A stretch of DNA of 64,000 nucleotides, from positions 124,001 to 188,000 of the forward strand of contig JACPYL010000025.1 in NCBI GenBank assembly GCA_016196065.1. The letters are read 5' to 3'. Positions 37,265 to 55,325 of this stretch are shown here, one piece after another. This DNA is from Acidobacteriota bacterium. GTDB lineage: Bacteria; Acidobacteriota; Terriglobia; Terriglobales; Acidobacteriaceae. Within the stretch, counting starts at the first letter, position 1; every line of letters begins with the position of its first letter. Position numbers and translations under genes: made by a program. The notes beneath the pieces are model-generated. The model saw only the letters and a program-made list of their open reading frames with translations. It did not search any database and was not told where the DNA came from.

Positions 37265-37320
37265 GAGGGTTAAGTGGTGAGCGCGGAAGGAATCGAACCT
37301 TCAACCTACTGATTAAGAGT
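37265..37320. repeat. Left attachment repeat (attL-like)
   Basis: Perfect 56-bp copy of 55270-55325, carrying the 3' 46 nt of the tRNA (37275-37320) plus 10 bases beyond. Similarity continues weakly on the outer side (GCTA..CACCGA in both). Right of 37320 the tRNA sequence stops and island DNA begins, so this is not a working tRNA gene. Confidence 0.9.
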
Positions 37321-37626
37321 ACTTGTGGAACGAAGAATCAACACATTAGCGCAGCTTAGATGAGTTCGCATTGGCGAGTGAAAATGCCGGTGTTAGCGCT
37401 TCGGGCCAACGTGAAGACCAACGCATACAACCGGCCACTGGGCACAAAATTGGGCACAGAAGCAAGCGCACGGTTTTCGAGTTGTTCCGGCGAAATTTGC
37501 CCACTACCTCTAGATTTAGAGGTGACTCCCCTGACGGGAAAGTCGCGCCGGTGGCAAGATGGTTTCAGGAGACCGTCCCCTTCCCCTTGCAGGGCGCAAC
37601 TCGCACGCCTCGGCACTTAAACATAT
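37321..37626. other. 306-base non-coding left end of the island
   Basis: No gene is supportable. At 37443-37463 the words GGGCACAAAATTGGGCACA echo GGGCACAATTCTGGGCACA at the 3' end of the integrase gene (55192-55210), so this may hold the tail of an older, related integrase. Short reading frames here on both strands lack any recognisable motif. Confidence 0.35.
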
Positions 37627-39975
37627 CTACTGCACAGTTAGGGTCGTTGAGCTCGCAGCGCCACCGATGTTGGCGGTAACGGTCGCAGTGCCTCGACCGA
37701 CCGGATAAGCGAGGCCACCGAGACGGACGACCACAACGGAAGGGTCGGATGTGGTCCAGTACACATACGGCGTCACAAATACCGAGGTGTTGTCGCTGAA
37801 GGTGGCCGAAACGGCGAGTTGTTGCGTGAGTCCCAGGTTGGTTGCGCCATTCGCCGGCGTCACGGTAAGGAAGACCGGAGTAGCGTCGGTGACGAACACT
37901 TCAGAAGTGCCGCTGATTGCATCGGCAGTCGCAATTATCGTGACGCGTCCGCTGACAAGCCCGGTCGCAACTCCCGTTGCGGTGATACCAGTAATGTATC
38001 CGGGGATACCAGGATCGTTGCTGATTGTCGCGGTCGATGAATCCGAAGTAGTCCAACGGACCGAGCTGGTCAGGTCTACCCGACTGCCATCAGTGAATGT
38101 GCCGATGGCAATCAGGCTATAGGGAAAGGATTTGGGGAAAGAGATTGGAGGAGGTGTCCCGATGGGATCGAGTGGCGGGCAATTGTTCAAAGGGTCGACG
38201 GTATCGGCTGGGCAAATGTCGATACGGGACAACGTGCCGGGATTAACGAGCAAAGAACTCGATCCACTTTGAGAGCCGAGACTCGCTGTGATGTTGGTTT
38301 GTCCACGCCCGCTGGCGCCGGCGAAGCCAAATGGAGTTACTGTGGCGATGGATGGTTCGGTCGCATTCCAATCGGCGGTCAGCGTAAGGTCTTGCTGAGT
38401 ACCGTCGCTAAACACACCCGACGCGATCAATTGATGGCCGCCGTTCAATGTGACACTCACATTTCCTGGAGAGAGACTGATGCCAGTCAAAGTCGCCGTG
38501 CTGACATTCAAGACGGCCGCCGAACTGGACACAGTCCCGTGGGCATCGGAAAAGCTGGCGGAAATGTTGGCTGTGCCCGTCGTTATACTTCGAGCCAGTT
38601 CCTGTAATCCGCCGGCATACGACACGGTTGCCACGCCGGTGTTGTCACTGGACCAGGCCGCCACGCTGCTGATGTCCTGCTGAAACGGTCCGGCGTTGTC
38701 GGCGAAGGTTGCGAGCGCAATGACATTCTGCGTGGTGCCGGGTGCGATCGTTGCCAGGTTCGGCGCGACCACCAGCGACTGTATGGTCGCATCGGAAACA
38801 CTCAGAGTGCTGCTGCCGTTCTGACTGCCGAGTTTTGCGGAGATCGACGCCGATCCAGCGCGCACTGCGCTCAATCGTCCGTTGCCGGGCACAATGGTGG
38901 CGACGGACGGGTCGGATGACGTCCAGGTGACGCCGGGTGTAGTGGTGGCCTCGAGCGAGCTGCCGTTCTTGAACACTGCAAATGCGCGCATCTGCAAACC
39001 TGTGTTGCTGGCAATCTTCGTTGTTGGAACCACGTTCACTTTCAGGATGGAACTGGCGTCCACACTGGCGGGGACGGTGGCACTGACTCCATTCATACCG
39101 GCGCTGACGTTCGTGCTGCCGAGGCCGAGCCCAGTGACGAGTCCTTCCGAATTGGTACGGGCTATCGTGGGCTCCGACGAGTTCCATGTCGCCGTTGCCG
39201 AGATGTCTTGCTTCGTGCCGTCGTCAAAACTTCCTGTCGCAACAAACTGCTGCGACGCTGCCAAGGGCACAGTCGAGGTGGAGGGTGTGATTGCCAAAGA
39301 GACCAGGTTGGCATTCGTCACAGTAAGCGACGCAGGAGCACTCGCAAGCGACCCTAATGCCGCTGTGATGTTGGTTACGCCGGGAGCCACGCCCGTTGCC
39401 CGGCCGCGCGTTCCAAGGGAGGAGCTAATTGTGGCAGCGGGTTGAGACGAATTCCACGCGACAAGGGCTGTGACGTCCGCCTGAGTGCCGTCGTTGTAAT
39501 TGCCGGTTGCGGCAAACTGCTGCGTCGTATCTTTGGCAATCTGAGCCACCGTGGGACTCACCGTGATCGAGGTGAGCTGAGGCACGACGGTGAGAATCGT
39601 GGTTGCCTGAAGAGTCTTCTGCGTCGGCGCCACGAAAATTTGCGCGGTGACGATGACGCGCCCAGACCCGGTTGCGGTGGCGGTGCCGTGCGGGTCGACG
39701 GTGGCGACTTTTGCGTCGGCACTGATCCACGTCACCTGATCGCTGATGTCCTGGGGGTTGCCGACGTTGTAAGTGCCAGTGACGGCGAATTTCAGCATAG
39801 CGGGCTGTTGGGGAGCGACGGCCAATGTGATCGTAGGATTCAAGGGTGCCAGAGTGATGGACGTCAGATATACGGAGTTCCCGCGATCGCCTCCGACCAG
39901 GCCGTTCTTACCTCCGCAGCCGCAGAGGATCGCTGCGACAAAGATGAGTGCGAATAGAAGCGAGTGTCTTGTCAT
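37627..39975 (-). CDS. Lipoprotein of eight BIG2-type Ig-like repeats
   Basis: 782 residues with a lipoprotein signal (hydrophobic core then LCGC, lipid Cys at 20). The rest is eight tandem bacterial Ig-like (BIG2) domains of about 75-100 residues, each with the pattern 'S(I/L)..(S/A)P', 'F.A.G.Y.DGT..D(I/V)(T/S)', 'W.SS.P..ATI' and 'G..NI.A'. The seventh repeat has a proline- and cysteine-containing insertion (ICPADTVDPLNNCPPLDP). Such proteins are surface adhesion or scaffold modules; no catalytic domain is present. First cargo gene of the island, transcribed leftward, with only 22 bases between it and the upstream hydrolase gene. Confidence 0.85.
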   Translation of the reverse strand: MTRHSLLFALIFVAAILCGCGGKNGLVGGDRGNSVYLTSITLAPLNPTITLAVAPQQPAMLKFAVTGTYNVGNPQDISDQVTWISADAKVATVDPHGTATATGSGRVIVTAQIFVAPTQKTLQATTILTVVPQLTSITVSPTVAQIAKDTTQQFAATGNYNDGTQADVTALVAWNSSQPAATISSSLGTRGRATGVAPGVTNITAALGSLASAPASLTVTNANLVSLAITPSTSTVPLAASQQFVATGSFDDGTKQDISATATWNSSEPTIARTNSEGLVTGLGLGSTNVSAGMNGVSATVPASVDASSILKVNVVPTTKIASNTGLQMRAFAVFKNGSSLEATTTPGVTWTSSDPSVATIVPGNGRLSAVRAGSASISAKLGSQNGSSTLSVSDATIQSLVVAPNLATIAPGTTQNVIALATFADNAGPFQQDISSVAAWSSDNTGVATVSYAGGLQELARSITTGTANISASFSDAHGTVSSSAAVLNVSTATLTGISLSPGNVSVTLNGGHQLIASGVFSDGTQQDLTLTADWNATEPSIATVTPFGFAGASGRGQTNITASLGSQSGSSSLLVNPGTLSRIDICPADTVDPLNNCPPLDPIGTPPPISFPKSFPYSLIAIGTFTDGSRVDLTSSVRWTTSDSSTATISNDPGIPGYITGITATGVATGLVSGRVTIIATADAISGTSEVFVTDATPVFLTVTPANGATNLGLTQQLAVSATFSDNTSVFVTPYVYWTTSDPSVVVVRLGGLAYPVGRGTATVTANIGGAASSTTLTVQ

Positions 39976-39997
39976 GAAGGCCCCTTAGAAAGATTTT

Positions 39998-54098: not shown

Positions 54099-54109
54099 GG
54101 AGAACAACA

Positions 54110-55278
54110 ATGTCGATCTACAAACGAGGCAAGACCTACTGGTACAAGTTCATGTGGAATGGCGAGATGATTCGTGAGTCGACTCGCCAATGCAACCACA
54201 ACATAGCTCGACAGATGGAAGGGGCGCACCGGGCGTCTCTTGCAAAGGGCGAAGTCGGGATCCGCGATAAGAAAGTGATTCCCACGCTCAAGAACTTCTG
54301 CCGTGAGCGCGTTGACCCTTGGGCGAAATCAACGTTCGAGATGGCGTCCCCAAAGACTTGGCTTTGGTACGGATTTGGAAGTGACTCACTCAAGAAATCC
54401 AAAACCCTGGCTAATCTCAAGCTGAACGAAATCGGCCCTGAATTGGTGGCGGAATATGCGTCTGAGCGGCAACGCGACGGCCTGAGGATTAGTTCGGTCA
54501 ATAGCTGCTTGCGGGCATTGCGCCGTGTCCTACGCCTTGCGGTGGAATGGGGGGTACTTGAAGCGTCTCCCAAGGTCAAGTTTCTGAGTGGTGAGCACCG
54601 TCGTGAAAGGGTAATCAATGCCAAAGAAGAGGCGCTGTACCTCGCGGTGGCACTGCCTCTCTTGCATGATGTCTCCCTTGTCCTCTTCGATACTGGAATG
54701 CGGCCGGAAGAATGCCACTGTCTGAGATGGGAGAACATCAACTGGGACGGCGGCCGGAAGAATGCCACTGTCTGAGATGGGAGAACATCAACTGGGACGG
54801 CGGCCGCAATGGCGTGCTTCTAATTACGCAAGGCAAGACCAAAGCTGCGCGGCGCGTCCTTCCGCTTAGTCCGCGCGTCCGCACAGTGCTCCAGAGCCGC
54901 TGGAAACTCACGGGCGAACCGGGCGAGGGCTGGGTCTGGCCCGCGGAAACAAAGGATGGCCACATCAATCATGACAGCGTGAAGCTTCAACACAAAAAGG
55001 CCCTGAAGCTCGCGAAGCTCCGCGCATTTGAGGTTTACTCAATTCGGCATACGTTCCTGACGCGACTTGGAGAGAGTGGCTGTGATGCATGGACTCTTGC
55101 GAGAATTGCCGGACACTCCAGTATCAGCATCTCGCAGCGATACGTTCACCCGTCCGAGGACGCAGTCCTAAACGCGCTTTCTCGTTTGAGTGGGCACAAT
55201 TCTGGGCACAACGACGAAAATGAAATTGCTGCAGGCTCTGTGGGATTGTTGCTAAGCACCGCCAACCGAGAGGGTTAA
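54110..55278 (+). pseudogene. Tyrosine integrase broken by a 50-bp tandem duplication
   Basis: AAGGAG eight bases before the ATG and a typical phage-integrase N-terminus (MSIYKRGKTYWYKFMWNG). The first frame runs through the SAM-like domain to the first catalytic Arg (TGMRPEE) and ends at 54775, soon after the duplicated segment. The second frame resumes 'RPEECHCLRWENINWDGGRNG' and continues to VYSIRHTFLTRL, GHSSISISQRYVHPS (catalytic Arg, His, Tyr) and the end at 55278. Removing one 50-base copy restores a 372-residue recombinase. The HxxR box begins with Tyr instead of His (YSIRH), a tolerated change. It ends at the tRNA-proximal repeat, as expected for a site-specific integrase of this tRNA. 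Confidence 0.85.
54701..54800 (+). repeat. Perfect 50-bp tandem duplication in the integrase gene
   Basis: 54701-54750 and 54751-54800 are identical and are followed by six more bases (CGGCCG) of a third start. Fifty is not a multiple of three, so the duplication shifts the frame. Confidence 0.97.
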
Positions 55279-55325
55279 GTGGTGAGCGCGGAAGGAATCG
55301 AACCTTCAACCTACTGATTAAGAGT
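55270..55325. repeat. Right attachment repeat (attR-like)
   Basis: Identical to 37265-37320 over 56 bases. It begins inside the last codons of the integrase frame and covers the 3' half of the tRNA gene, so the integrase stop lies in the att site itself. Confidence 0.9.

Follow-up and report, generated by a model that had tools for sequence, protein, structure and literature searches.

What kind of element ends in the tRNA-Lys gene of an acidobacterial genome, and what do the genes that it carries do? We addressed these questions for an island at positions 37265-55325 of a 64,000-nt stretch of DNA, hereafter the window, from Acidobacteriota bacterium (Acidobacteriaceae; GCA_016196065.1, contig JACPYL010000025.1, positions 124,001-188,000 of the forward strand). 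The genome is labelled G000, and coordinates are those of the window unless stated otherwise. We consider it reasonably probable that an ordinary tRNA-targeting element has captured a PHO-controlled module of a TonB receptor and a PstS-like protein for phosphorus scavenging.

The borders of the island were obtained from a search for repeats of at least 25 nt between positions 36000 and 57000. A single perfect direct repeat spans the interval, with two 100% identical 56-bp copies at 37265-37320 and 55270-55325, 18,005 bp apart. The only tRNA gene of the window, tRNA-Lys(CTT), lies intact on the minus strand at 55280-55355. The repeat holds the 3' 46 nt of this gene plus 10 nt beyond and ends 3 nt 5' of the anticodon, such that one attachment (att) repeat is distal and the other, proximal one lies inside the tRNA gene. 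Searching the whole genome with the left copy returned, besides the two copies, just a weaker tRNA-like match, and a chance repeat was ruled out by 56 identical bases ending in a tRNA. The 56-bp repeat is the usual scar of a tyrosine recombinase entering a tRNA gene and restoring it. The locus thereby has the hallmarks of a tRNA-targeted island: the tRNA 3' end in direct repeats at both borders, an intact tRNA, and an adjoining tyrosine integrase, though this is split by a 50-bp duplication. The repeat and tRNA searches confirm the 18-kb bracket that the original prediction had described; its view of the island as an undescribed-looking type is not upheld, since the island belongs to a known type, the tRNA-targeting integrative elements.

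The open reading frames (ORFs) of the island were scanned with Pfam (13 ORFs, E up to 0.01) and PHROGs (7 ORFs), which bore out the gene positions predicted beforehand. Seven genes form the cargo module. On the minus strand these encode a 782-amino-acid (aa) lipoprotein-like protein with Big_2 repeats (37627-39975; PF02368, 2.6e-39), a 342-aa protein of the DLH/alpha-beta-hydrolase fold (39998-41026; PF01738, 1.4e-4), a secreted 622-aa protein with a predicted PstS fold, called p622 (41125-42993; profile and fold model), and a 281-aa secreted protein with a Big_3_5 domain (43162-44007; PF16640, 6.9e-17). Divergently, on the plus strand, follow a 1345-aa TonB-dependent receptor with PF25183 barrel, plug and CarboxypepD_reg domain (44253-48290; Pfam, 1.6e-156), an 812-aa lipoprotein with He_PIG immunoglobulin (Ig) domains (48305-50743; Pfam) and a PhoB/OmpR-family response regulator with no adjoining kinase gene (50820-51557), whose best NCBIfam model is PhoB TIGR02154 at 217.6 bits versus a cut-off of 296.2. 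The surface-uptake-like cargo with its own response regulator is thus present in the tRNA-Lys island as predicted: receptor, Ig-repeat proteins, hydrolase-fold protein and PhoB/OmpR-type regulator. No pst ABC transporter genes were found among the module ORFs and no SusD family among the cargo proteins (Pfam). The 812-aa lipoprotein was considered as a SusD-like candidate, and its structure model had a predicted local distance difference test score (pLDDT) of 41.7, unusable for judging the fold. In the hydrolase-fold protein a G-x-G-x-G motif, which we take to be the nucleophile elbow, replaces the usual nucleophile: Gly189 stands there in place of Ser or Cys in all eight aligned homologues. 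The protein may therefore bind rather than cut.

The mobile core lies between the cargo and the tRNA. It comprises a 297-aa CHC2/DnaG-like zinc protein (52155-53048, minus strand), a 67-aa Xis-like HTH_17 protein (53048-53251, minus; PF12728, 8e-11; PHROG excisionase, 5.2e-9), a 272-aa CGNR zinc-finger protein (53280-54098, plus; PF11706, 3e-5) and the integrase. A 184-aa zinc-finger-like protein (51564-52118, minus) found no family match in Pfam, PHROG, NCBIfam or PADLOC-type scans. The predicted CHC2 gene was recovered with the DnaG-like PADLOC model (E 2.4e-9) and through plasmid proteins annotated as toprim/CHC2 (46.6-47.4% identity over 76-86 aa), while Pfam gave no match. Likewise, an integrase gene is present beside the tRNA, as foreseen, but it is not intact. 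It reads as two plus-strand ORFs, an N-terminal part with the core-binding domain (54110-54775, ATG start at 54110; PF13102, phrog_1) and a C-terminal catalytic part (54712-55278; PF00589, 2.3e-18), because a 50-bp unit present twice in tandem at 54695-54794 (copies 96% alike) shifts the frame. This duplication could be genuine decay or an assembly fault; it suggests that this copy of the island cannot now excise unaided.

Other classes of mobile element were considered as well. An integrative and conjugative or a mobilisable element was rejected, as Pfam found no relaxase or conjugation family among the 13 island ORFs. A phage or phage satellite was likewise rejected, no capsid, virion, terminase or packaging family having been found by Pfam in the 13 ORFs or by PHROGs in the 7 ORFs; the PHROG scan returned integration genes and families of unknown function. 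The CHC2 protein had no relatives in a phage collection and none in viral contigs (five pattern matches, none confirmed), and four distant matches in a plasmid collection. For the catalytic part of the integrase the phage collection held nine distant matches (25-41% identity).

We then compared the cargo with that of 40 relatives. Full-length relatives of the 1345-aa receptor, at 72-77%, occur in seven of them. All seven cargo genes, with order and orientations kept, are present in five (G003, G008, G011, G013, G016). G001 carries six, the regulator not being found at a contig end; G019 carries four, the contig ending at the hydrolase gene, and lacks the lipoprotein and regulator beyond the receptor. 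None of these seven module stretches contains a tRNA or a relative of the integrase, Xis or CHC2 protein. The original prediction had named the same cargo order outside any att context as evidence against it, and this arrangement is found in part, complete in five of the 40. The genes on both sides of the module are common to G008, G013 and G016; in G003 the left flank is the same, some 10 kb of other genes separating it from the module, and G011 and G001 represent a second context. G000 has the left flank of these relatives in synteny at 115-136 kb of contig C1, as far as the gene that adjoins the module in them; the module is absent there and other genes follow, e.g. those of glucose-6-phosphate dehydrogenase and glucokinase. 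From the relatives' stretches and this synteny it follows that several species of the genus have the seven-gene module elsewhere in their chromosome, and G000 has it within an island.

The wider distribution was obtained from a pattern-based scan with the p622 alignment over 84,980 species, one genome per species. It returned 47 loci, 46 of them with acidobacterial titles and one from Armatimonadetes. A receptor homologue was found in the fetched stretch of 40 loci (at L160 over 7% only) and the hydrolase-fold protein in 41, several stretches being cut by contig ends. Relatives of the mobile proteins were absent from all 47 at E up to 1e-6, and four stretches contained a tRNA.

These data bear on how the module reached the tRNA-Lys gene. 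Instead of arriving with the element, it might have originated at the C1 locus of the host itself and relocated into an element, or a defective remnant, already sitting there, which would be a rearrangement and not a transfer. We give this serious weight, at somewhat less than even chances. The presence of the left flank on C1 without the module fits such a relocation, in GC content the cargo stays within the flanks' range, and the gene trees show no transfer. In the receptor tree G000 and G019 are grouped at only 61/42, and gyrB and rpoB together do not reject this pair (approximately unbiased (AU) test, p 0.345). The receptor tree rejects G000, G001 and G011 as one clade (AU p 0.0009), which gyrB and rpoB neither show nor reject (p 0.466). 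For G019, G016, G013, G011, G003 and G007 the gyrB and/or rpoB rows are incomplete, and of the two rpoB versions of G003 the 79% version (G003b) was left out. Neither the receptor tree nor those of gyrB and rpoB thus decide between transfer and relocation. Two observations argue against relocation. No gene of G000 is closely related to the right flank gene of the relatives' locus (best 32%), such that no scar is seen; and the p622 most similar to that of G000 is the one of G019 (69%, versus 51-59% in six others and 44% in G007), yet G019 is not nearest to G000 by rpoB or gyrB.

To characterize p622, whose translation probably starts at an inner ATG (MRGTK), we built a fold model from 33 sequences (pLDDT 83.2). 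The model matched 40 PDB chains at E up to 0.001. The descriptions of 38 of them name phosphate-binding proteins (PstS, PhoX and DING; best match 4e-8), many being copies or mutants of one protein; the remaining two are OxyR domains. The p622 profile matches PstS at E 0.0035-0.21 over the anion loop RE-x-x-SGT, and PF12849 is matched by nine of the 33 aligned family members (best 3.7e-6). The model thereby makes the secreted protein, previously described as binding-protein-like, a predicted member of the PstS phosphate-binding fold. It resembles PstS, PhoX and DING proteins in fold and in the RE-x-x-SGT-type loop. It differs from them in length (588-622 aa versus 236-374 aa) and in being encoded with an outer-membrane receptor and without pst ABC transporter genes in the module.

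The promoters of the module provide further evidence. The divergent region between the 281-aa and receptor genes is conserved in eight genomes in two blocks, in which conserved bases recur at a spacing of 11; this was equalled at spacing 11 in 1 of 5000 shuffles and at any spacing in 7 of 5000. A half-site pattern drawn up from these eight promoters themselves, seven of which contain it exactly, was searched for in the window. With at most one mismatch only four matches were obtained in 64 kb versus 0.11 expected, all in module promoters: 43052-43079, 44059-44086, 44070-44097 and 44182-44209. The first is an array of three half-sites with an 11-bp period upstream of p622 (minus strand, one mismatch). 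The second and third overlap and form four half-sites at 11 bp facing the 281-aa gene (44059-44097, minus), and the fourth has three half-sites at 11 bp facing the receptor gene (plus). For a held-out test we used 38 of the 47 p622 loci, dropping L125-L130, L133, L134 and L139 as identical or near to those used. These 38 loci (601 kb) contained 19 exact arrays in 13 loci, and 15 of the 19 fell in the 33 kb made up of the 500 nt preceding p622 and receptor homologues; 20 shuffles gave no match. Granulicella aggregans (L142), the one record of the 47 whose title does not call it a metagenome-assembled genome, has p622, receptor and hydrolase-fold genes together but lacks an exact array. Further arrays lie away from p622 and receptor genes at L149 (454-492), L156 (10200-10227) and L158 (10282-10309) and may mark further genes of the same regulon. 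In the part of the literature source considered, a PHO box is given as a pair of 11-nucleotide direct repeats in which seven bases are well conserved, and the E. coli motif as CTGTCAT, to which the half-site GTCATA of the window is close (PMC4415409). As expected for a PHO regulon, 11-nt direct-repeat boxes are found at the divergent promoter. The module is most likely a phosphorus-scavenging surface set, whose ligand and regulation we infer from the fold model and these arrays.

Several findings weigh against an assignment to phosphorus. The window's p622 itself matches no Pfam family, PF12849 included, and the query-normalised template modelling (TM) scores of its model are low (0.16-0.31 for the listed chains), p622 being about twice as long as most of the PstS chains. 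The aligned loop has D-G in PstS and P-L in p622, and the Asp of PstS is presumably a ligand. The regulator does not reach the cut-off of the PhoB equivalog model, and most of the 47 wider loci yielded no such regulator; moreover, direct repeats are also bound by members of the OmpR family besides PhoB. No phosphatase family was matched in the module by Pfam, and the hydrolase-fold protein is without its nucleophile. Concerning the arrays, the G001 promoter is the one among the eight without an exact array, and exact arrays upstream of p622 or receptor homologues occurred in only 10 of the 38 held-out loci. A stricter two-half-site pattern, which misses the window's own site by one base, gave no match in the whole genome and one in the control. 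The upstream gap between p622 and the 281-aa gene alone had no significant 11-bp signal (587 of 5000 shuffles).

The island could thus be as described while its module serves another nutrient, the PstS-like fold binding another anion or an organic ligand under an OmpR-family regulator of other specificity. The length of p622, its missing Pfam match and the lost nucleophile would fit this, as does the abundance of receptors like that of the module, with 35 matches in G000 and many in relatives too, such that receptor kinship says little about the ligand. We nevertheless regard another nutrient as rather unlikely, given that 38 of the 40 PDB matches are phosphate binders and that the arrays fit the PHO-box layout and E. 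coli motif as given in the part of PMC4415409 considered.

The mobile core was followed independently of its cargo by surveying the CHC2 protein in 200 genomes of the family and 399 of the class. Relatives were found in four and 15 of these, respectively (own genome counted in both), together 17 genomes, and their context was inspected in 13 (all except G368, G380, G496 and G547). A tyrosine integrase occurred in the same stretch in nine of the 13, and in seven a tRNA lay at the end of the stretch or within 0.7 kb. The tRNA 3' end faces the integrase for Lys (G000), Cys (G135), Asn (G393), SeC (G448) and Ile (G301), and the 5' end for Leu (G300) and Arg (G212). Perfect repeats with the tRNA 3' end bound the elements at tRNA-Cys of G135 (53 bp; 862724-862776 and 877372-877424) and tRNA-Asn of G393 (47 bp; 1191489-1191535 and 1201465-1201511). 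None was found in G301, G300 and G212, where contigs are short, nor in G448, where just a 30-bp repeat lies at the tRNA 5' end. The cargo consists of RHS-repeat and Sel1 proteins in G135 and of a metallophosphatase-STAND NTPase in G393. The core of DnaG-like CHC2 protein, Xis, zinc-finger protein and tyrosine integrase is thus a family scattered in Acidobacteriota of the same class, and the proposed check for CHC2 and integrase relatives with other cargo turned out positive, the core recurring at tRNA-Cys and tRNA-Asn with different cargo. In contrast, the idea of an element type devoted to outer-membrane uptake is not supported, as relatives keep the same cargo on stretches free of tRNA and core genes and the core carries other cargo elsewhere. 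The 14.7-kb tRNA-Cys element of G135 (L079) carries a 1756-aa RHS-repeat protein at 864896-870166, and in G448 (contig C342, L240, 14207-16998) a CHC2 protein and an integrase point into a tRNA-SeC gene, an unusual integration target.

The tRNA-Lys locus itself was compared at 15 tRNA-Lys(CTT) genes; 14, counting that of G000, are from the genus and one, in G024, is from the family. The 5' side holds the same genes at 11 loci; in G006 and G024 some of these lie on the 3' side instead, while G002 and G014 are without them, a gene run 5' in G002 sitting 3' in G014. The 11 loci have no 3'-side gene in common over the 0.7-13 kb of sequence present. At least six of the 15 tRNAs (G000, G002, G003, G008, G017, G020) have an integrase or part of one directly beside them, a lower bound since the Pfam scans covered the neighbouring genes of 10 loci. 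The G008 locus has a 12-kb element between the copies of a perfect 55-bp repeat, with an integrase that is 42% related and with DUF3987, IS1595 and PIN cargo. G020 retains the last 78 residues of an 88% identical integrase beside the tRNA, and the 448 bp of contig present there contain no match to the upstream part. An intact tRNA-Lys(CTT) together with a separate 3'-half copy at 92% or more was found in six of 24 genus genomes (G000, G003, G008, G009, G011, G021); matches in G007, G015, G016, G022 and G023 were left uncounted, there being no intact gene in that listing or the match being weaker. The 3' side of tRNA-Lys is a hot spot. At least 4 kb of it is available at 11 of the 14 other loci, and no orthologue of an island gene lies there, the only related genes being the 42% related integrase and Xis of G008 and more distant integrases; in G003, G011 and G020 it extends over 0.7-1.4 kb, too short to judge the absence of the island. 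No 3'-side gene at the 14 loci, with these short stretches included, matched the left flank of the window, whose sulfatase has many paralogues, and no strictly empty site with this flank was found among them.

It is improbable that the two repeats stem from separate events, an older att remnant and a later integration, with the module never carried by this integrase: the turnover at the tRNA, the extra 3'-half copies and the broken integrase would fit, but the repeat is identical at 56 of 56 positions, includes 10 nt beyond the tRNA, and encloses no second tRNA and, among the scanned ORFs, no second integrase.

Further features were seen around the island. PF25183 TonB receptors flank it on both sides (33661-37164 and 59127-62528), the one on the tRNA side having a homologue at 11 of the 14 other tRNA-Lys loci. 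Right of the tRNA, at 55536-56360, lies a 274-aa secreted-looking ORF built of two 300-nt repeats that are 77% alike, and contig C12 of the same genome contains a tandem run resembling them at 69-70%.

For capture of the module by the element, the preferred reading, we propose the following course. The anatomy of the locus shows that an element with a CHC2/Xis/zinc-finger/integrase core entered the 3' half of tRNA-Lys(CTT) and that integration restored the tRNA and left the 56-bp repeat at both ends. Its cargo is the seven-gene module that is chromosomal elsewhere in the genus, and the broken integrase would now keep this copy from excising unaided. Upon phosphate limitation a PhoB-type regulator would bind the observed 11-bp arrays in the divergent promoter and upstream of p622. 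The exported p622 would then bind phosphate or a phosphorylated ligand, which the TonB receptor would move across the outer membrane, with the Ig-repeat proteins as a putative surface scaffold. A bolder and clearly more doubtful proposal is that Acidobacteriota have an unrecognised system for acquiring phosphorus at the outer membrane: a PHO-box-controlled TonB receptor would work with a PstS-fold protein where other receptors have a SusD-type partner, and elements that target tRNA genes and have a DnaG-like core would carry the system from species to species.

Related systems are known for both parts of the island. As far as the considered part of the report goes, tRNA islands with a tyrosine integrase, such as candidates in Candidatus Solibacter usitatus (PMC3174227), are alike in the integrase beside the tRNA, the duplicated tRNA 3' end, the intact tRNA and the variable cargo at one hot spot. 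Unlike tRNA islands in general, the core here includes a DnaG-like CHC2 protein (15 of 399 class genomes) and a CGNR zinc-finger protein, and the cargo is a whole outer-membrane module. PusCD of Bacteroidetes, according to the part of the report considered, is induced by low phosphate and likewise combines TonB receptor and surface lipoprotein in clusters for phosphorus (PMC8115612). Compared with that description, no SusD, phosphatase or phosphodiesterase family was matched in the module, PstS-fold and Ig-repeat proteins stand beside the receptor, and PHO regulation is predicted from the promoters. In Caulobacter, where the section considered describes ElpS as a surface lipoprotein induced by phosphate starvation, the elpS gene lies beside that of the TonB receptor CC0171, a likeness by description, and, unlike the module here, adjoins a type II secretion cluster (PMC2996285). 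Among the matches listed from the open-licence literature none named a TonB-PstS module in Acidobacteriota or a tRNA element carrying genes of this sort.

The island is genuine and belongs to a known type, and its cargo can now be described as probably a surface set under PHO control that includes a PstS-fold protein. Soils are rich in Acidobacteriota and often poor in phosphorus to the point of limitation. The promoter signature and the PstS-fold partner would provide a testable ligand for one group of TonB receptors, and the island would represent one way for such a surface set to become mobile.

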